Notes under the pieces: generated by a model
What the model saw: only the letters and a program-made list of their open reading frames with translations
Databases searched by the model: none
Told to the model about the DNA's origin: nothing
Made by a program: the position numbers and the translations under genes
Shown here: positions 2,494-14,047 of the stretch, piece by piece
Numbering within the stretch: position 1 is the stretch's first letter
Layout: each line of letters begins with the position of its first letter
NCBI RefSeq assembly: GCF_030219325.1
Contig: NZ_CP126625.1
Location: 3,088,857 to 3,152,856 of the forward strand
Direction: 5' to 3'
DNA length: 64,000 nt
DNA from: Geothrix sp.
GTDB lineage: Bacteria; Acidobacteriota; Holophagae; Holophagales; Holophagaceae

Positions 2494-3656
2494 TGGACTC
2501 ACTCCTCGGCCCCATCGAGGCTGTCCCCAGCCTCGAGCTGCTGGGGCCTCAGGGGTCCGAGATCATCCGGCTCTTCACCCGGCCCTTCCTGCTGATGCAC
2601 CGGGCCTCGGAGCTGTACACCGCCCGGATCTGCCTGCTGCTGCTCCTGGATCTGGGTTGGGAGGACCGGCTCCGGGCCGGAACCACGCTTGATCAGCTCT
2701 GCCTTGGGCTGTCTGACCAGGTCCGGAAACCCCTGGCCTGGATGCTGCCCTTCCTCACCTATGAGGGCCTGCTCACCCGGATGGGCGAGGTCTACACCTT
2801 GAGCGGCAACCCGCCCCTGGACCTGGCCGGGATCCGCGCCCTCATGGAGGCCGAGGCCCCGGACCACGGCGTCAATTTCGATCTGCTCGACGGCGTGCGC
2901 GAGCGGATCCGCCCCTACTTCACCGAAGGGAAGGCCGGCGAGGGCCTGCTCTTCGACCTGACGCTCTTCCCCCTCTGGCTCTCCTACTTCCGCAACGAGA
3001 ACCTGTGCTACTACCCCAACAACCTGCTCGCCCTGCTGGCCCTGCGCGAGCAGCTGCCAGAAGGGGCCCGGGTGATGGAGCTGGGTGCCGGTGCCGGCTC
3101 CTTCGCCCAGCTGGTGGCGTGGAAGGGCGCGGAGGAGGGCTGGCTCGCCCGCATCGCTGAGTACCGCTTCACGGATGTGGCCCCGACCTTCCTGCGCCGC
3201 GCCCAGCGCGAGTTGAAGGCCGCCGCCCCGGGCCTTCCCCTCAGCTTCCAGGCGCTGGACCTGAACCGCCCGCTCGAAGACCAGGGCATCGGGCCCGCCA
3301 GCCTGGATGCCATCGTGGGCATCAACGTGCTGCACGTGGCCCAGGACCTCGAAGCCACCCTGGGCGACCTGCGGAGCCGGCTGAAACCATCCGGCCGCCT
3401 GGTGATCGGGGAGTGCCTGAAGCCCACCCTGGACCAGCCCCTCTACCTGGAGTTCTTCTTCAACTTCATCAAGAGCTTCACCGAGGTCACCCTGGATCCC
3501 CGCTGGCGTCCCCGCCATGGCTTCCTCACGCCGGAGGCCTGGGACGAGGCCCTGCGCCACGCCGGGTTCGCCCAGATCGCGCATACCCCGCCGCCCCGCC
3601 CCCTCATGGACCGGCACCCGAACTTCACCGTGGGGGCCCTTACGGCCCGGGCTTAG
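2493..3656 (+). CDS. Class I SAM-dependent methyltransferase
   Basis: A 387-residue protein with a helical N-terminal half, as in O-methyltransferases that carry a winged-helix dimerisation domain, and a C-terminal Rossmann methyltransferase. SAM motif I is VMELGAGAGSF near residue 190. The motif II/III region reads DAIVGINVLHVAQD, and LKPSGRLVIGE is the strand after it. The domain resembles Methyltransf_12 proteins found alone or inside polyketide synthases. The substrate is unknown. It overlaps prs by one base (TGATG) and its stop overlaps the convergent apbE stop. The link to prs looks like an operon arrangement rather than a pathway. Confidence 0.8.
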   Translation: MDSLLGPIEAVPSLELLGPQGSEIIRLFTRPFLLMHRASELYTARICLLLLLDLGWEDRLRAGTTLDQLCLGLSDQVRKPLAWMLPFLTYEGLLTRMGEVYTLSGNPPLDLAGIRALMEAEAPDHGVNFDLLDGVRERIRPYFTEGKAGEGLLFDLTLFPLWLSYFRNENLCYYPNNLLALLALREQLPEGARVMELGAGAGSFAQLVAWKGAEEGWLARIAEYRFTDVAPTFLRRAQRELKAAAPGLPLSFQALDLNRPLEDQGIGPASLDAIVGINVLHVAQDLEATLGDLRSRLKPSGRLVIGECLKPTLDQPLYLEFFFNFIKSFTEVTLDPRWRPRHGFLTPEAWDEALRHAGFAQIAHTPPPRPLMDRHPNFTVGALTARA

Positions 3657-4606
3657 GCAAAGGTGGCGATCCTCGCGAGACCCGTAGTCGTCAGCAGCTC
3701 GCCGGCCTCGGTGATGAGAGCGCCCTCCACCGAGGTCGAGGATTCGAGCAGGTGCAGCCCGCGCTGCGGCCCCAGCAGGAAGGTGGCCGTGGACAACCGC
3801 CCCGCCTCGAAGGCCGTGGGCGCCACCACCGTGACTGAGGCGAGGCCCCGGGCGGGGTGCCCCGTGGTGGCATCCAGGAGGTGGTGGTAGCGGATGCCCT
3901 CCACCTCGAAGCCGCGTTCATAGTCGCCCGAGGTCGCGATGCCGCAGTCCCCCTTCGCCCGGATGGCGAGCCGGAAGCGGTCGCGGTCGCGGGGGTCCTG
4001 CACGCCGATGACCCAGGGCTTCCGATCGCCACGCGACCCCACGGTGCGCACATCCCCCAGCAGGTTCACCAGGGCCGATTCCGCGCCTCCCGCCCGGAGC
4101 AGTTCCGCCACCCGGTCCGCCGCATACTCCTTGCCCACGCCGCCGAGATCCAGTTCCATGCCCCGCCGCGCCAGCCGGACCGTGCCGCAGCGCAGCTCCA
4201 CGGCGCCGGCATCCACGCAGGGCAGCAGGGCCTGGATGGCCTTCTCGGCGGGCACCACGCCCTTCCGGAAATCCCAGACCCGCCGGAGCACGCCCACCGT
4301 GGGGTCGAACCGGCCCTCCGTGAGCACGGCCAGGTCCAGCGCGGCCCTCACGAGGCCCTCGGTCTCGTCATCGATGATCACCGGCGCACCGCCTGCTTCG
4401 GTGTTGATCTCCGAAATCACGCTGGTCGGACGGTAGCGGGAAAACTTGGCTTCGATCCGCCGGGCTTCGGCCACGGCCGCCTGCATGAGGGTCGTCGCCG
4501 CGTCCTGGCCACGGACATCCACGAACTTCACCTCCGCCTCGCCGCCCATGAGGGGGAAGCGGGCCTGGTAGAGCGTCCGTGACTCCGGCGCCGTCAGTAC
4601 TGCCAC
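3653..4606 (-). CDS. apbE: ApbE family FAD:protein FMN transferase
   Basis: An ApbE-like flavin transferase of about 317 residues, a family that attaches FMN to Thr/Ser of extracytoplasmic redox proteins. Family signatures are present in order: RFPLMGGEAEV at the N-terminus, RYRPTSVISEIN, LDLGGVGKEYAADR, and GIATSGDYERGF followed by RYHHLLDATTGHPA, the metal/FAD site (usually HIIDPRTG). The start is uncertain. GTG 4606 overlaps the DUF3570 stop; ATG 4549 would remove the first conserved strand. No signal peptide or lipobox is visible with either start, which is odd for a periplasmic enzyme. No flavinylation-motif substrate was recognised in this window. It is the last gene of a three-gene minus operon. 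Confidence 0.88.
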   Translation of the reverse strand: MAVLTAPESRTLYQARFPLMGGEAEVKFVDVRGQDAATTLMQAAVAEARRIEAKFSRYRPTSVISEINTEAGGAPVIIDDETEGLVRAALDLAVLTEGRFDPTVGVLRRVWDFRKGVVPAEKAIQALLPCVDAGAVELRCGTVRLARRGMELDLGGVGKEYAADRVAELLRAGGAESALVNLLGDVRTVGSRGDRKPWVIGVQDPRDRDRFRLAIRAKGDCGIATSGDYERGFEVEGIRYHHLLDATTGHPARGLASVTVVAPTAFEAGRLSTATFLLGPQRGLHLLESSTSVEGALITEAGELLTTTGLARIATFA

Positions 4607-5760
4607 TTCAGGCTCAGGGTGGCGGTGGTGGTGTTGACGTCTGCCGCGGAGGTCGTGGGGCCTGCGTAGACAGCGGGAGAGCTCCCGGTGGCGGCGGTCT
4701 GCAGCGGCGTCACCGGGTTCTTGCCCTGCTGGATCTGGTAGGTGGCCCCGAGGCTTAGCGTCAGTCCCTCCGAGAGTTCGGTGGAGATGGCGCAACCGAG
4801 CAGGACGCTGCTGAAGGCCGAGAGCCGGTAGTCCGAGGACATGTAGGTCTGGGGGGCGGCGAACCTGGCGTCGTAGAAGGTGGCGGCGTTCTGGCTGTAG
4901 AGGCGCACCCGGGGCGTGAGGATCCAGCCCTCGTCGAGGTGCTGGTCGTAGGTGAAGTCCAGGGTGTGGGCCTTGAGGCCCCAGTCGTCGCGGTAGAAGC
5001 GGTACGTGGTCTTGAGGGCGCCGTCCCACTCGAAGTAGTGTGCCTGCTTGACGAAGTAGGCATCCCGCGCGCGGGTGTCCGGGCGGCGCTCGGGCGCCGT
5101 GGTGATGCCGACCGGCACGATGAGATAGGGCTCGTTGAGATCGCCCTTGAGGTTCATGCGGGAGAGGCCCACATCCAGCAGGTCGTCCTCGCCCAGCACC
5201 CAGGTCCATCCCAGCGAGTAGCCGTGGGTCTTCTTCGGCTGGCGGAGGGTGCTGGTCACCGGCGCCACGGTGTCGTCGGACAGGGAGATGCCGTAGTGGA
5301 GGGTGCCGCGGCCCTCGAACAGGGTCCAGGCATCGGAGAGGCCGTAGCCCCGGGCGATGTAGTCCTTCTCCACCGAGTGGGAGAGGTCCACCGTGGGCAG
5401 GTGGGCGCCGAAGCGGCGGCTGTAGGTGATCCCTTCGGATTTCCGCTCGTCGGTGTACTGCGCCATCGGGATCTTGCCGGCCGCGTTCGTGCTGGTCTGG
5501 CCCGAGGCCGAGGTGCTGGTGGTCACGCTGAGGGTCGGATAGGCGCCCGTGGGCGAGGCGCCGGAGATGCTGTCGTGGGAGAGCAGCAGGTCGATCTGGC
5601 CGAGGGCCTCGCTGAACTCGTGGTGGAGCAGGAGGGTGGGGTTCTGGACCCGCGTCCGGCCATCGGACTCGCTGTAGAACAGATAGCGCAGCTCCACGAA
5701 GGACTGGGCCCGGGCGACCCGACCGCCCAGCATGCCGAGGCCCGCGACCATCCATGGCAT
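4594..5760 (-). CDS. DUF3570 outer-membrane protein
   Basis: A DUF3570 protein of about 388 residues. A short hydrophobic leader (MPWMVAGLGMLGGRVARAQ) is followed by repeated amphipathic strands with aromatic belts (HYFEWDGALKTTYRFYRDDWG, DYRLSAFSSVLLG) and the chain ends in LKWQY, an outer-membrane-barrel-like terminus. Family function is unknown; from memory, DUF3570 genes often sit beside DUF4266, TlpA and ApbE genes, as here. An in-frame ATG at 5844, with AAGGAAGGGG upstream, would give a longer N-terminus overlapping the upstream gene; ATG 5760 was preferred because it leaves a normal-length leader. It overlaps the apbE GTG start. Confidence 0.78.
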   Translation of the reverse strand: MPWMVAGLGMLGGRVARAQSFVELRYLFYSESDGRTRVQNPTLLLHHEFSEALGQIDLLLSHDSISGASPTGAYPTLSVTTSTSASGQTSTNAAGKIPMAQYTDERKSEGITYSRRFGAHLPTVDLSHSVEKDYIARGYGLSDAWTLFEGRGTLHYGISLSDDTVAPVTSTLRQPKKTHGYSLGWTWVLGEDDLLDVGLSRMNLKGDLNEPYLIVPVGITTAPERRPDTRARDAYFVKQAHYFEWDGALKTTYRFYRDDWGLKAHTLDFTYDQHLDEGWILTPRVRLYSQNAATFYDARFAAPQTYMSSDYRLSAFSSVLLGCAISTELSEGLTLSLGATYQIQQGKNPVTPLQTAATGSSPAVYAGPTTSAADVNTTTATLSLKWQY

Positions 5761-5806: not shown

Positions 5807-6505
5807 TCAGTTGCAGCCACAGCCACCTCCCGCCGCGCCGCCATTGCCCGCGGCCCCTTCCTTGCTGGCATGGACGTGTTCCCGCAGGAGGGCCGTGAGC
5901 CGGTCGCCATCGAGGGCCATGATGGGATCCGCCAGGTGGCCGCGCCGCCAGGCCTTGAGGGCGCCCGTGGCCTGCAGCCCAGCCGCGACGCGGACTTCAC
6001 CCGCCGCGGCGCCTCCCGCCAGCAAGGCGGCCACGATGGCGGCCTCCTCCTGGGCGTGCGAGCCCCCCTCGAAGCGGGCGGCGATGCGGCCTTCCCGGTC
6101 AAGGATGAAGGTCGTGGGCATGGCCACCACCGAGAAGGCCTCGCCGGTCTGGCCCGCCGGATCGTGGAGGATCGTGAACCGCACGGGCACCTTCTCCAGG
6201 AAGGTCGCCACGGCGCTGGCATCCGCGTCCAGGGAGATGCCCACCACGCGCACCCCCTGGCCTGCGAACCGCGCCTGGAGGGCATCCAGTTCCGGCAGGC
6301 TCTTGCGGCAGGGGCCGCACCAGGAAGCCCAGAAATCCACCACCACCACCTGCCCCCTGAGGGCTTCCAGGGAGAAGGCCTTCCCCCCCTGGTCTTTCAG
6401 CTGGATGGCCGGAGCGGGACCACCCGGTCCGGCGGCATGGAGCAGGGCGCCCATCATCAGCAGGAGGGCGGCCAGGGGCCGGTGGAGCGGAAACCGTGGG
6501 TGCAT
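5807..6505 (-). CDS. TlpA-like thioredoxin fused to a C-terminal DUF4266 domain
   Basis: A 232-residue exported protein with two parts. After a signal peptide (about 1-25, ending LLHAAG), residues about 30-165 form a TlpA/AhpC-TSA thioredoxin fold with active site WCGPC (Cys63, Cys66) and cis-Pro in VVAMPTTFI. After an Ala/Gly-rich linker, residues about 183-232 match DUF4266: WRRGHLADPIM, an HVHASKEGAAG segment and the terminal GGGCGCN. DUF4266 is usually a separate small lipoprotein. The start MHPRF at 6505 is preceded by GGAG and opens the leader; a longer frame to 6544 adds no domain. It leads a minus operon with DUF3570 and apbE. Role inferred: thiol-redox or metal handling at the envelope. 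Confidence 0.82.
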   Translation of the reverse strand: MHPRFPLHRPLAALLLMMGALLHAAGPGGPAPAIQLKDQGGKAFSLEALRGQVVVVDFWASWCGPCRKSLPELDALQARFAGQGVRVVGISLDADASAVATFLEKVPVRFTILHDPAGQTGEAFSVVAMPTTFILDREGRIAARFEGGSHAQEEAAIVAALLAGGAAAGEVRVAAGLQATGALKAWRRGHLADPIMALDGDRLTALLREHVHASKEGAAGNGGAAGGGCGCN

Positions 6506-6675: not shown

Positions 6676-8331
6676 TCAGAATCCGGAGAACACGACCACG
6701 GAGTAGGCCGCGTAGGTGCCATCGGGCTTGGGCACCACGGCCACCCGGGTCACGGCGGGGGCGACGAGCTTGGTGGCCCAGGCGCTCTCGGGAATGGCCG
6801 TCACGGTGATGACGCCGGACTGGTTCGCCACTTCGAGGACGGCGGGCTGCATGCCCACGGTGGTGTTCAGGCTGACCGTGATGTTCTGCGTGGCCGCGGC
6901 GGAGTTGGTGAAGGTGAAGCCGAGCTGCCCGCCATTGTACGAGGTGCTGATGGTGCCCTTGGGCAGCGCCACGGGCAGGAAGATCGCGTTGTTGGCATCC
7001 CAGGCGCTGGTGCCGCTGTTCCAGACCAGGTCGCTCACGCCACGGACCCTGACGTCACCCGAGCCGGCGCAGGCAGCCGCGAAGGCGCCGCTGCTCGTGG
7101 AGGTCACGCCGGGGAAGCCGAGATACCACCAGGTGAAGGGATTGGCGTAGGCGTGGACCCGGTCGCCGGCCACAGGGTGGGTGTAGGTGAACTGGGTGGC
7201 GTCCGCCACCTTGATGGCACCGCCATCCACGGCCCGCTGGATGTTCACGGACTTGGCGTGCATCGGCACCTGCAGCGGATCTTTCACGTCCACCTGGACC
7301 TTGAAGCCCACCCACACATCGGCCAGGGTGGCCGTTCCAGTCCCGAGGGTCTGGTCCGTGCGGAAGGTGAAGGTGGTGTCGGCATCGATGGCGATGGCGC
7401 GGGGCACGCTGGCATTGGTGCTGACCAGCAGCTTGTTGTTCACGCGGTCCACCCCGACGACGTGACCCTCGGGGGTCCAGCCCGGCAGGGCGTTGACGCC
7501 GTACCACACCCGCACCGCCCAGAGGCTGCCGTCGCTCTGCATGCGCAGAGACACCAGCGCGTTCTTGCCCGCCGCCAGGCCTGCGAAGCTGCCCACGGTC
7601 TTGGTGTCCGCATCGAAGAACCAGGCGCCGGCGCCCACGTTCACGGTGAGGTCGTTCCCGCTGTCCGTGTGCAGCACGAAGCTGGAGGCGCCGACGGAGG
7701 CGATGGTGCCGCGGCGGTGCCGGAACATCATCTGGCCCATGCCCATCATGCCGTTCGGGTTGGGACGATGCTTGACCTGCAGGTTCAGGACCCAGTCGCC
7801 GTTGGGCAGCTGGACCAGGAAGAGGGGATGGCCCAGGTCGAAGTCGATCTGCACGGCATTGCTGCCGGTGGTGGTCACCACCAGGTCCGTCTCGAGAGCG
7901 ACGAGCACGCTGGCGCCGTTCACGTGCACCTGGCCGGCGGGCACGGTGGTGCCATCGGCCTTCACCAGGTTCACGCTCGCGGGATCGATGGTGACGCGCA
8001 GCGCGTCATAGGTGCCCACGGGAAGCTGGGCGGTGGCGAGCAGCTCGCCCACGCTGTCGAGGTCCACCAGGTTGATCTTGGCGGTGGCGCCCTCGAAGGC
8101 CACGACTTCCTTGGCATGGTCGGCCTTGCTCCGCAGGGTGATCTTGGTGACCACCACCTCGACGGCCGACCACTGGTCCGAGGGGGCGTCGGTCAGGATG
8201 ATCGAGGCCGAGCCGGTGGCCACGGGGGCCGGGGACGAGGAGCCGCTGCTGCCACCGCAGGCCACGGTCAGGGCCAGGGTGGTGAGGGCGGGCACCGCCA
8301 GCAGGGAGAAGGTCTTGAGCGAAGGGCGCAT
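6676..8331 (-). CDS. DUF4382 domain lipoprotein
   Basis: A 551-residue lipoprotein. The leader ends in LALTVACGG, a lipobox with modified Cys near residue 25, followed by a Ser/Gly-rich tether. Residues about 35-185 match DUF4382: the opening SIILTDAPSDQWSAVEVVVTKI, later LPVGTYDALRVTI, and a strand near DFDLGHPLFLV. The remainder is beta-rich with repeated strand patterns and no recognised catalytic motif. DUF4382 proteins are cell-surface or periplasmic and of unknown function. ATG 8331 follows a GGAGATCCCC ribosome-binding site; the reading frame extends upstream but is not leader-like. The gene diverges from the next one at 8472. Confidence 0.83.
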   Translation of the reverse strand: MRPSLKTFSLLAVPALTTLALTVACGGSSGSSSPAPVATGSASIILTDAPSDQWSAVEVVVTKITLRSKADHAKEVVAFEGATAKINLVDLDSVGELLATAQLPVGTYDALRVTIDPASVNLVKADGTTVPAGQVHVNGASVLVALETDLVVTTTGSNAVQIDFDLGHPLFLVQLPNGDWVLNLQVKHRPNPNGMMGMGQMMFRHRRGTIASVGASSFVLHTDSGNDLTVNVGAGAWFFDADTKTVGSFAGLAAGKNALVSLRMQSDGSLWAVRVWYGVNALPGWTPEGHVVGVDRVNNKLLVSTNASVPRAIAIDADTTFTFRTDQTLGTGTATLADVWVGFKVQVDVKDPLQVPMHAKSVNIQRAVDGGAIKVADATQFTYTHPVAGDRVHAYANPFTWWYLGFPGVTSTSSGAFAAACAGSGDVRVRGVSDLVWNSGTSAWDANNAIFLPVALPKGTISTSYNGGQLGFTFTNSAAATQNITVSLNTTVGMQPAVLEVANQSGVITVTAIPESAWATKLVAPAVTRVAVVPKPDGTYAAYSVVVFSGF

Positions 8332-8471
8332 GGGGATCTCCAGAGGTCGGAGCCGGGGCTCCAGATGAGAGGGTGAGGAATCGGACAACTCCACTGACCC
8401 GGGCCGGCGGAAAAGGGTTGATGGAAGAAAGTTGGGATGGCCCTGGTCCTTGTCTTGCAATACTTCCAGCC
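8332..8471. promoter_or_regulatory. Divergent intergenic region
   Basis: A 140-base gap between the start of the minus DUF4382 gene and the start of the plus AMP-ligase-like gene. It must hold promoters for both directions. No clear sigma-70 boxes, operator palindrome or riboswitch fold were recognised by eye. Confidence 0.4.
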
Positions 8472-10285: not shown

Positions 10286-13200
10286 ATGCTGCACATGCAC
10301 CTGGGACCGCACCGAACCAGACCCGCAGTCTCCCTCCTGCTCGGGCTGGTGCTGGCCGGCAGTTCGGCAGGGCCGGGCCTCCAGGCCGCCCAACAGAAAA
10401 GGATCGTCTCCGTCCGGCGGGACGCCGACGAATCCACTCACGCGAGGTTCATCCAGACCGTCCATGGCGTCCGCGTCTGGGGTGGGGATGGCATCACCCA
10501 CGCCCGCAAGGATGGGCGTGAATTCCTGCTGACCCAATCCGTGGTGGGGGAGATCGCCGTCCATACCAGCCCGACCCTGACCTCCTCGGAAGTGCTCTGG
10601 ATCGTGTCGGAGAACCTGAAGCTGCGCGGCCCCTTTGCGGTCACGCCGAAGGTCGAGCTGGTCATCCTCCCGGAGGTGGAGCGGGTCCACCGGGACACCG
10701 GGACGCCCGTCCAGCCCAGTCAGGACCTGAATGCCATCGAGGTGGTGGAGAAGACGGTCGGCTTCCGCCTGGCCTACCACGTGCAGGCCGCCCATGGCAG
10801 CGAGACCGGCGGGGCCGCCCTGACCGGATTCCTGGTGGATGCCCACGGTGGCACCATCCTCCGGAAGTGGTCCGCCCTGGAGACGACGGGAACCGGTCTC
10901 TCCCAGTACAGCGGCACCGTCGTCCTCTCGACCGCACCCGGTGGCCTGGGCCATGAACTGCGGGACGTGGGGCGGGGCGGCAACGTCACCCTCGACATGA
11001 ACCACAGCTGGGACATGGCCCTGAACGGCGACCTCTACGAGGATGCGGATGATGTCTGGGGGGATGGCCAGCAGTACCTCCTGGGAGGGTCCACCACGGC
11101 CCCCAACGGCCAGACAGCCGCAGTGGATGCCCATTTCGGCACCCAGGTGACCTGGGATTTCTACGGCCAGGTGCTGGGCCGGAACGGGATCGACGGAGCG
11201 GGCACCCCCACCCGGGCGCGGGTCCACTTCGGCGACAACTATGACAACGCCTTCTGGTGGGACGAGTGCTTCTGCCTGACCTTCGGGGATGGCAGCAAGT
11301 TCAAGACACTGACCTCGCTGGACGTGGTCGGACACGAGTTCAGCCACGGCGTCACCTTCGCCACGGCTGGCCTGATCTACAGCGGAGAATCCGGATCCCT
11401 CAACGAGGCCACCTCGGACATCCTCGGCACCATGGTCGAGTTCTACGCCAGAGGCGCCAGCGGCAAGGGAGCCGTGGTGCCCGACACCGGCGGGAACTGG
11501 ACCATCGGCGAGCAGCTGAGCACTCCGGCCTTCAACCATCCGCTCCGCTACATGTACAAGCCGAGCCTGGACGGATCGAGCCCCGACGCCTGGTCCGCCA
11601 GCCTGGTCAACCTCGACGTCCACTACGGAAGCGGCCCCATGAACCGCTGCTTCTACTTCCTGGCCCAGGGGGCCTCCGCGAACGCCGCCTCGGTGTATGC
11701 CTCGCCCTACCTGCCCGGGGGCATGAGCGGCCTCGGCAACGACAAGGCCACCCGGATCTGGTACCGCGCTCTGACCACCTACCTCACCTCGGCCAGCACC
11801 TACCTCCATGCGCGCATGGCCGCCCTGCGGGCCGCCATCGATCTCTACGGCCCGGGCTCGGCCGAATTCCAGGCTGTCCGGAACGCCTTCGCGGCCATCA
11901 ACGTGGGCTATGCCTCCGGAGACGGGGACGACCTGGAACCCCCCACCGTGTCCGCCTCCGTGGACGGCAGCACCGGCACCATCCAGTTCACCGCCCACGC
12001 GCAGGACAACAAGGGCGTGGCGTTGCTGGTCTACTTCGTGGATCAACGCCGAGTGGCGACCCGCACGCTGGGCGGGCAGGCCAGCATCATCGACGGGCTG
12101 GCCTTCGACTCGCGCAGCATCCCCAAGGGACCGCACACCCTCACCCTCGCCGCGACCGATACGGTGGGCAACGTCACCTACTCCGCGCCGGTCCCCTTCC
12201 AGCTGTCGAACCCGTTCTATGAGCTGCTTCTGCAGGGCGACTTCGAATTCGGCAGCCTCTACGACGGCGGCATCGACAAACGGCACTCGGCCTGGGTCGA
12301 TCCCATCGGCGTCATCTCTCAGGCCTGGCCCTACTTGGGCTGGTGGTGCGGCGATTTCTGCGGCGTCGGCGACACCAACACGCAGTCGATCCACCAGACC
12401 GTGACGATCCCCGCCGAGGCCCAGAGTGCAGTCCTGAGCTTCTGGCTCGAGGTCTTCTCCCAGGAACCCGACGACCGGGCCCGGGATACCTTCCAGGTCC
12501 AGGTCCGGGCCACCACCGGGGAAGTTCTCGAGACCCTGGCGACCTATTCCAACCTGGATCGCAGCCGGATCGCGATCCCCATTCCGGCCAAGAAGGACTA
12601 CCGCCAGCATCTTCTCGATCTGTCCGCCTACCGTGGGAAGACCGTGCAGCTCTGGTTCGAAGGACGGGAGGACGCGGCACATCCGGTCCCTGCCATCGCC
12701 CCAGTAGCGGTGCGCCCTGCGGTTCCCATGGTGGTACCCTCGCCCGGCCAGGACCGGCAGATCGCCAAATCAGACACGATCTCCGGCGTCACGTTCTACC
12801 CCAGTGGCGTCGGCCTCTCCGAATTCCTCCTCGACAACGTGTCCCTCAGGATCGGGGAGGCCCCGGATACGGAAGCACCCGTGGTCTGGAGCAGGGGCAT
12901 CCGTGGAACCAGCGGAGTGATCGAGCTCAGCGCCGACGGCCAGGACAACCTGGCCATCACCCGCATCGACTTCCTGGTGGATGGCGTCCTGGTGGGCACC
13001 ACGACCTCGGGCCCCCACAGGCTGTCCTTCGATTCGCGGGGCCTCGCCGATGGCAACCACCAGCTCGTGCTGAATGCCTTCGATGCCGCCGGGAACAAGG
13101 GGGCCTCGTCGCCCCTGGGCTTCACCACGGACAACACCTCTGCCCAGATCCTGAAGAACCCGGGGTTCGAGGCCGGACTCGCCGACTGGACCTTCACCAA

Positions 13201-14047
13201 CTGGAGCGTCGCCTGGAGCAGCTCCATCTACGACACCGAAGTGGAGACCCTCGCCGGCAATGCCGGCGTCATGGGGCCCGCCCTCCCGGCCATCCTCTCC
13301 CAGCCCGTGTCGATTCCGGCGAATGCCGCCTCGGCCACCCTGACGTTCCCCTACGGCATGCTGTCCTTCTCCAATCCCCCGGATGACAGCCTCAAGGTGC
13401 AGGTCCGGGACCCGAGCGGCGCGGTCCGGGCGACCCTCGCGACCATCGCACCCCCCAACACGGATGCGTACTACGGCCAGGCGGAAGTCAGCCTCCTGGA
13501 TTTCCGTGGCCAGGACATCGTGCTGGCCCTCGTCCTGAACACAGTCTCCCTTCCCCCGGGCGGAGGCGCGATGAAGGGCCTGGCGGTCAACCTGACCCAG
13601 GTCGACCTGGTGGTGCAGACTTCCCAGTTTCCTTCCATCTTCACCCAGCCCGTCAGCTGCTCCGTGTCCGCAGGCACCCAGGTCACCTTCTCCGTGGTCG
13701 CCGGAGGCACGGGGCCCCTCTCCTACCAGTGGCGGAAGGACGGCGTTGACATTCCCGGTGCCCGGGCCAGCAGCCTGACCATCCCCGGGGCCGCAGCAAG
13801 AGATGAGGGCAGCTACCAGGTCCTGGTCACCAACGGCCAGGGCAGTGTCCTGAGCGCGGCGGCGACCTTGAAGGTGCTGACCATCGTCTTCGACCTCAAC
13901 GCCGATGGGTCCGTCAACGTGCTCGACCTGGCATGGTTCCTGAAGCACTACGCCCCGGGCGTCCCCGTGGCCAACTCCCCCGCAGACCTGAATGCGGACG
14001 GCTTCGTCGATGACGCCGACCTGGCTCTGCTGCTGGCCCGGCTATGA
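10286..14047 (+). CDS. Secreted M4 (thermolysin-family) metalloprotease with Ig-like and dockerin domains
   Basis: A 1253-residue exported protease. Order: signal peptide (about 1-35), FTP/PepSY-type propeptide (about 40-200), M4 catalytic domain (about 215-560) with zinc site HEFSH (His350, Glu351, His354) and Glu374 in NEATSD at the thermolysin spacing, then an Ig-like bacterial domain, a jelly-roll-like region, a second Ig-like/jelly-roll pair, an I-set Ig-like domain (about 1115-1195) and a type I dockerin (about 1197-1253). The dockerin has two calcium-loop repeats, DLNADGSVNVLDL and DLNADGFVDDADL. ATG 10286 has GGAGGG close upstream; ATG 10295 is an alternative. The stop overlaps the next start as ATGA. 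A paralogue lies at 49543. Confidence 0.9.
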   Translation: MLHMHLGPHRTRPAVSLLLGLVLAGSSAGPGLQAAQQKRIVSVRRDADESTHARFIQTVHGVRVWGGDGITHARKDGREFLLTQSVVGEIAVHTSPTLTSSEVLWIVSENLKLRGPFAVTPKVELVILPEVERVHRDTGTPVQPSQDLNAIEVVEKTVGFRLAYHVQAAHGSETGGAALTGFLVDAHGGTILRKWSALETTGTGLSQYSGTVVLSTAPGGLGHELRDVGRGGNVTLDMNHSWDMALNGDLYEDADDVWGDGQQYLLGGSTTAPNGQTAAVDAHFGTQVTWDFYGQVLGRNGIDGAGTPTRARVHFGDNYDNAFWWDECFCLTFGDGSKFKTLTSLDVVGHEFSHGVTFATAGLIYSGESGSLNEATSDILGTMVEFYARGASGKGAVVPDTGGNWTIGEQLSTPAFNHPLRYMYKPSLDGSSPDAWSASLVNLDVHYGSGPMNRCFYFLAQGASANAASVYASPYLPGGMSGLGNDKATRIWYRALTTYLTSASTYLHARMAALRAAIDLYGPGSAEFQAVRNAFAAINVGYASGDGDDLEPPTVSASVDGSTGTIQFTAHAQDNKGVALLVYFVDQRRVATRTLGGQASIIDGLAFDSRSIPKGPHTLTLAATDTVGNVTYSAPVPFQLSNPFYELLLQGDFEFGSLYDGGIDKRHSAWVDPIGVISQAWPYLGWWCGDFCGVGDTNTQSIHQTVTIPAEAQSAVLSFWLEVFSQEPDDRARDTFQVQVRATTGEVLETLATYSNLDRSRIAIPIPAKKDYRQHLLDLSAYRGKTVQLWFEGREDAAHPVPAIAPVAVRPAVPMVVPSPGQDRQIAKSDTISGVTFYPSGVGLSEFLLDNVSLRIGEAPDTEAPVVWSRGIRGTSGVIELSADGQDNLAITRIDFLVDGVLVGTTTSGPHRLSFDSRGLADGNHQLVLNAFDAAGNKGASSPLGFTTDNTSAQILKNPGFEAGLADWTFTNWSVAWSSSIYDTEVETLAGNAGVMGPALPAILSQPVSIPANAASATLTFPYGMLSFSNPPDDSLKVQVRDPSGAVRATLATIAPPNTDAYYGQAEVSLLDFRGQDIVLALVLNTVSLPPGGGAMKGLAVNLTQVDLVVQTSQFPSIFTQPVSCSVSAGTQVTFSVVAGGTGPLSYQWRKDGVDIPGARASSLTIPGAAARDEGSYQVLVTNGQGSVLSAAATLKVLTIVFDLNADGSVNVLDLAWFLKHYAPGVPVANSPADLNADGFVDDADLALLLARL

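Follow-up and report, generated by a model that had tools for sequence, protein, structure and literature searches.

The window, by which we mean the whole 64,000-nucleotide stretch of Geothrix sp. DNA that was analysed, contains a gene in which a TlpA-type thioredoxin runs on into a DUF4266 domain. The question raised by this locus is what the joining of the two says about the function of DUF4266. The families concerned have been connected before: Méheust et al. 2021 (PMC8238504) described a flavinylation system of ApbE, DUF3570, thioredoxin and DUF4266. Among 285 DsbD-type flavinylation clusters they found DUF3570 in 227, a thioredoxin-like protein in 183 and DUF4266 in 221, and they counted a further 316 clusters without DsbD nearby. 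They demonstrated experimentally that Chlorobium luteolum DUF3570 is flavinylated by ApbE (covalent FMN), proposed that the C-terminal CXC of DUF4266 may undergo redox cycling, and put forward, for some bacteria, a thioredoxin-like/flavin hybrid supplied by DsbD. Our literature search found neither DUF3570 nor DUF4266 named outside that paper, and neither biochemistry on DUF4266 nor a function assigned to it; the sole experimentally shown step of this widespread system was the flavinylation of DUF3570. The words 'fused' and 'fusion' are absent from the paper's main text, although the architecture may be recorded elsewhere without comment.

This literature bears on an earlier note on the same DNA, which held that the fusion ties DUF4266 to thiol redox chemistry. 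The fusion does fit a redox role for the CXC motif, but the link had already been drawn on the basis of gene clusters (PMC8238504). The note was also right about the DUF3570 neighbour but missed the flavin side: DUF3570 is a shown ApbE substrate, and ApbE is in the operon. What is new here is the fused architecture, a natural 'Rosetta stone', and not the redox link. The fusion strengthens an existing proposal and by itself reveals no new chemistry.

The fusion gene and its operon

Both domains of the TlpA–DUF4266 fusion placed by the earlier note at 5807–6505 were matched and its coordinates were right, the gene lying on the minus strand (Table 1). Pfam searches (hmmscan) of the 232-aa product returned Redoxin at residues 28–157 (E 1.6e-28) and AhpC-TSA at residues 28–143 (E 9.9e-28). 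DUF4266 (PF14086) matched the tail significantly, with 70.4 bits against a cut-off of 27 (E 2.4e-19, profile positions 2–50 of 50), and a profile search of the 3.73 Mb genome found DUF4266 above the cut-off in this gene only. The TlpA/ResA-like features, namely the Redoxin/AhpC-TSA fold, a CXXC motif and an export leader, are all present, which supports the description of DUF4266 as joined to an exported WCGPC thioredoxin; against the ResA model NF002854 of NCBIfam the fusion scores 92.8 bits, below the cut-off of 170. Trp62, Cys63, Pro65 and Cys66 are invariant among the operon thioredoxins compared. The sequence and the leader score give a hydrophobic export leader and no lipobox, and the product is therefore probably soluble in the periplasm.

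Table 1. Features of the fusion gene and its operon in the window.
Feature	Position	Strand	Basis and remarks
tlpA-DUF4266 fusion gene	5807..6505	minus	232 aa; ORF and translation, Pfam
Signal peptide, residues 1-24	6434..6505	minus	probable cleavage near LLHA/AG by eye; hydrophobic leader score
Redoxin/TlpA (ResA-like) thioredoxin domain, residues 28-157	6035..6424	minus	Pfam, model, fold matches
WCGPC active site, residues 62-66	6308..6322	minus	sequence
Flexible linker, residues 165-183	5957..6013	minus	pLDDT about 50
DUF4266 domain, residues 184-232	5810..5956	minus	PF14086
C-terminal Cys-Gly-Cys, residues 229-231	5813..5821	minus	Gly-rich tail 219-232; protein ends GGGCGCN
DUF3570 gene	4594..5760	minus	PF12094, 8.8e-58; start codon uncertain; predicted outer-membrane barrel
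SGAS, predicted flavinylation motif (mature DUF3570 residues 48-51), in HDSISGASPTGA	5554..5565	minus	kept by most family members; flavinylation of such motifs shown for Chlorobium luteolum DUF3570 (PMC8238504)
TGAY at site of second flavinylation motif	5539..5550	minus	departs from [ST]GA[ST] at last residue
ApbE (FAD:protein FMN transferase)	3653..4606	minus	PF02424, 3.9e-76; start uncertain, may overlap DUF3570 stop

The fusion gene is the first of a compact minus-strand operon with DUF3570 and ApbE. The published logo of DUF3570 has two [ST]GA[ST] acceptor motifs; the window protein has SGAS as the first and TGAY at the second. Two DsbD genes are present in the genome, neither of them in this operon. 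Directly upstream lies a gene for an exported lipoprotein-like protein with DUF4382 (6679–8457, minus; 2.4e-14), and further along the window is one for a large M4 (thermolysin-type) protease that is secreted, carries Ig-like domains and matches dockerin type I at its C-terminus (10286–14047, plus).

No export leader is recognisable in the window ApbE from its N-terminus and hydrophobicity score. By the same score, which is a rough hydrophobicity measure rather than a signal-peptide prediction and is applied to uncertain starts, the operon ApbE is leaderless in 92 of 105 scored loci (L089–L206), all 22 fused ones included; the 13 loci with a leader belong chiefly to one set of the window's phylum (L186–L202). 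Nearly all the thioredoxins, separate DUF4266 proteins and DUF3570 proteins score as having an export leader. Because the operon ApbE is mostly leaderless, these sequences suggest that the flavin is attached in the cytosol before export, or by another route.

Distribution and origin of the fusion

DUF4266 occurs in 15 of the 77 genomes of a family-level sample, and all 15 have TlpA in front of it in one frame, with every fused protein ending in CGCN. Close relatives that have the gene thus retain the tail within the same long frame, and a chance frame or sequencing frameshift is excluded. The other 62 genomes are without DUF4266; the locus is therefore patchy, which may reflect acquisition by transfer or repeated loss. 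At the phylum level, 32 of 396 genomes carry DUF4266, fused in 15; seven of these 15 genomes are also in the family sample, and the eight added bring the total to 23 genomes from seven family-level groups. Such recurrence likewise rules out a frameshift or assembly artefact.

Elsewhere, the survey of fused and separate forms found separate genes only. Among the best 80 matches in named genomes (79–80 loci) there was no fusion and DUF4266 was separate throughout; these loci belong to Gammaproteobacteria, Eisenbacteria, Krumholzibacteriota, Nitrospirota, Latescibacterota and others, with one from Thermoanaerobaculum (Acidobacteriota). DUF4266 was present in 90 of 369 genomes of the gammaproteobacterial class of Shewanella and in 21 of 246 genomes of a Nitrospirota sample, and the fusion-length frames read in these 90 and 21 genomes yielded no TlpA–DUF4266 fusion; most of the long frames, found in Gammaproteobacteria and once in Nitrospirota, were chance upstream frames. 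Viral contigs searched with the fusion protein matched its thioredoxin domain only. The locus search used the DUF4266 alignment A2, a mixed alignment (A1) being too diverse. Restriction of the fusion to one phylum holds for the sets searched; Bacteroidota, where one control genome has DUF4266, lay outside the survey. Over a short piece of RpoB, genome G308 from the window's phylum lies near a named Thermoanaerobaculum, which makes Acidobacteriota the probable phylum. Within what was searched, the fusion is real, conserved and lineage-restricted.

Two side observations were made among the gammaproteobacterial genomes. Some carry three to five DUF4266 copies (G756, G539, G490, G652, G474, G739 and G784). 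At locus L242 (937–1848, minus), a frame combines the front half of DUF4266 with the middle of DUF3570, without the CXC tail or the flavin motif, and looks like an internal deletion or an assembly join.

Both the DUF3570 tree and that of the concatenated operon place the fused loci in two groups: group I comprises the window's family with families f34, f48, f56 and f65, and group II, comprising f26 and f6, stands beside separate proteobacterial operons. The starred branches of these trees force at least two changes, and the thioredoxin tree, built on 100 columns only, likewise sets the two groups apart. AU tests did not reject a single fused group (p 0.556 and 0.334), and for this reason the claim of two independent fusion events was dropped.

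DUF4266 as a separate protein and in predicted structures

The commonest order in separate loci is thioredoxin, DUF4266, DUF3570 and ApbE, with a median of 83 bases from the thioredoxin stop to the DUF4266 domain. The separate thioredoxins tested share the Redoxin/AhpC-TSA type of the fused thioredoxin, and DsbD genes adjoin some of these operons. With a strict pattern, 86 of the 97 separate loci have a lipoprotein-type Cys just ahead of the domain, and in the majority of the 11 that fail it such a Cys can be seen by eye, in agreement with the earlier view of DUF4266 as normally a small separate lipoprotein beside DUF3570. In the 22 fused loci, the 30 residues preceding the domain contain no Cys. 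The linker of the fusion stands where the separate gene has a stop codon and lipoprotein signal, and at the sequence level the fusion has replaced stop codon and lipoprotein leader with this linker.

A TlpA-type thioredoxin lies within 4 kb of DUF4266 in 109 of 119 loci. The ten without one are mostly from Colwelliaceae, some of them at contig ends, so that a TlpA partner at every DUF4266 locus, the possibility raised by the earlier note, is not what the survey found. Because the thioredoxin gene is absent nearby at about 8% of loci, a dedicated thioredoxin is not always needed, and DUF4266 at these loci may be served by another one. DUF3570 is the more constant partner: it is nearby in all 119 loci except L151, which is cut by a contig end, and L191, which looks disrupted. 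Individual operons without a nearby thioredoxin, again mostly from Colwelliaceae, are L090, L118, L121, L122, L125, L133, L158 and L160, the last near a contig end. A metagenome record titled Rickettsia typhi (L145) has DsbD, thioredoxin, DUF4266, DUF3570 and ApbE, and its label is probably wrong.

The CGC motif is invariant in all 119 aligned DUF4266 domains (97 separate and 22 fused loci, the window included). M14 and H28 are kept in 98% and 92% of the separate forms, respectively, and in 100% of the fused ones.

The model of the fusion protein has a mean pLDDT of 81.5, with the thioredoxin part ordered (mostly over 90). For this part the best fold match is the thiol:disulfide interchange protein 3gl3 of Chlorobium tepidum (Z 24.3; 139 residues at 1.1 A); ResA reaches a Z of about 21 (1.6–1.7 A over about 137 residues). 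The DUF4266 part was modelled as two helices (185–191 and 200–218) followed by an unstructured segment (219–232) bearing the CGC, with pLDDT under 50 from residue 224. A new point drawn from this model is that the CGC would sit on a disordered glycine-rich tail.

DUF3570 was modelled with 16 long strands (pLDDT 89.1, pTM 0.86). The model matches outer-membrane barrels, among them PelB, BcsC, CymA and OmpG (Z 17–20) and also MtrB (6r2q, Z 15.6); a sequence search of solved structures with DUF3570 gave no relative, the one match having E 0.99. The long loops come after odd-numbered strands, so the model fits extracellular loops and periplasmic termini. Counting strands and loops places SGAS (48–51) where strand 3 ends on the outer side and a 31-residue loop begins. 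Likewise new is the prediction, from this model, of DUF3570 as an outer-membrane barrel of 16 strands whose flavinylation motif lies where strand 3 ends. Since this is the extracellular end of the strand, the flavin site would be far from a tail in the periplasm, unless an inward fold of the loop or entry of the tail into the barrel brings the two together. The barrel model sharpens what 'extracytosolic electron transfer' might mean here: is this a flavin carrying electrons across the outer membrane without haem?

A candidate electron path and its alternatives

We favour a reading, at a probability of roughly 0.55 and built on sequence and models, in which electrons travel from the thioredoxin to the barrel's flavin by way of the CGC tail. 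A DsbD-type membrane reductase would reduce the WCGPC of the TlpA domain, and thiol-disulfide exchange would carry the electrons from WCGPC to the CGC of the DUF4266 tail. The short helices of DUF4266 would bind the DUF3570 barrel at its periplasmic face; from there the tail, Gly-rich and disordered, would reach the FMN attached to DUF3570 by ApbE. From the DUF3570 flavin the electrons would go on to an acceptor located within the outer membrane or beyond it, ferric iron being one possibility. Where thioredoxin and DUF4266 lipoprotein are separate, as in most other bacteria, the two must find each other, whereas the fusion keeps them tethered. Because the two are joined in one gene, they are suggested to act together, and their fusion favours the step from WCGPC to CGC in particular; the transfers from DsbD to WCGPC and from CGC to flavin are proposed from analogy and gene context. 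We infer the electron path, its direction and its acceptor. With both parts in a single small protein, at fixed stoichiometry, the thioredoxin-to-CXC step can be tested.

A bolder form, which we regard as unlikely, is a thiol-to-flavin conduit across the outer membrane, in which the CGC tail would enter the barrel from the periplasm and reduce a covalent flavin facing the lumen or the outside. If true, such a conduit would do without haem what porin-cytochrome systems do in extracellular electron transfer, and the fusion would be the most compact version of it.

It is possible, though on balance improbable, that the CGC is instead a copper or iron site, the thioredoxin serving only to keep its two cysteines reduced for metal loading, with DUF4266 delivering metal or electrons to the barrel. 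TlpA-like proteins reduce cysteine metal sites during cytochrome oxidase assembly, and the CXC pair is accompanied by the conserved M14 and H28. However, one subgroup (e.g. L039, NIEVYREG) has Asn in place of the conserved His, with the CGC still invariant, which weakens a fixed Cys-Cys-His site while leaving a metal possible. The modelled tail is disordered, and the constant partners of DUF4266 are a flavoprotein barrel and a flavin transferase rather than a metal chaperone; both points argue against a metal site, in whose favour some clusters contain the VIT1 iron transporter (PMC8238504).

Electrons could also run inward, from an outside reductant to the barrel flavin, then to the CGC and on to TlpA, which we consider quite unlikely. 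Known TlpA/ResA and DsbD proteins work reductively, and DsbD beside some of the operons suggests a membrane source of electrons; the sequence itself does not set the direction, and a reversed flow is possible in principle (PMC8238504). Very doubtful, finally, is a role in assembly without steady electron flow, with TlpA and the CGC keeping or isomerising cysteines or acting as a chaperone of DUF3570 and its flavin into the membrane. DUF3570 does accompany DUF4266 at nearly every locus, and with ApbE mostly leaderless, flavin attachment may precede export; however, the window DUF3570, with only one Cys in its mature form, forms no disulfide of its own.

Among known systems the locus is closest to the published 'DsbD system' (PMC8238504), with which it shares an operon of the same four families, the CXC of DUF4266 and one [ST]GA[ST] motif in DUF3570. 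Here TlpA and DUF4266 form one polypeptide, the DUF4266 part has no lipoprotein anchor, and DsbD lies elsewhere in the genome; the thioredoxin-like protein of the published system is PF13899, whereas it is Redoxin/AhpC-TSA here and in the separate operons tested.

With the ResA/TlpA/DsbE proteins, thiol-disulfide oxidoreductases that act on apocytochrome c or in oxidase assembly, the fusion has fold, CXXC and export in common, but it bears a Cys-pair tail of its own and lies in a flavin operon. Mammalian thioredoxin reductase and MerA have C-terminal swinging redox tails, and the fusion resembles them in its flexible C-terminal tail, its two near-terminal redox residues and a possible relay from disulfide centre to partner. 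The likeness is one of analogy only, as the fusion polypeptide has no flavin and the flavin is predicted on a separate barrel. The fold match to the MtrCAB porin-cytochrome conduits is general to outer-membrane barrels and shows no kinship; what the two have in common is a redox cofactor with an outer-membrane barrel, flavin and thiols here and haems there.
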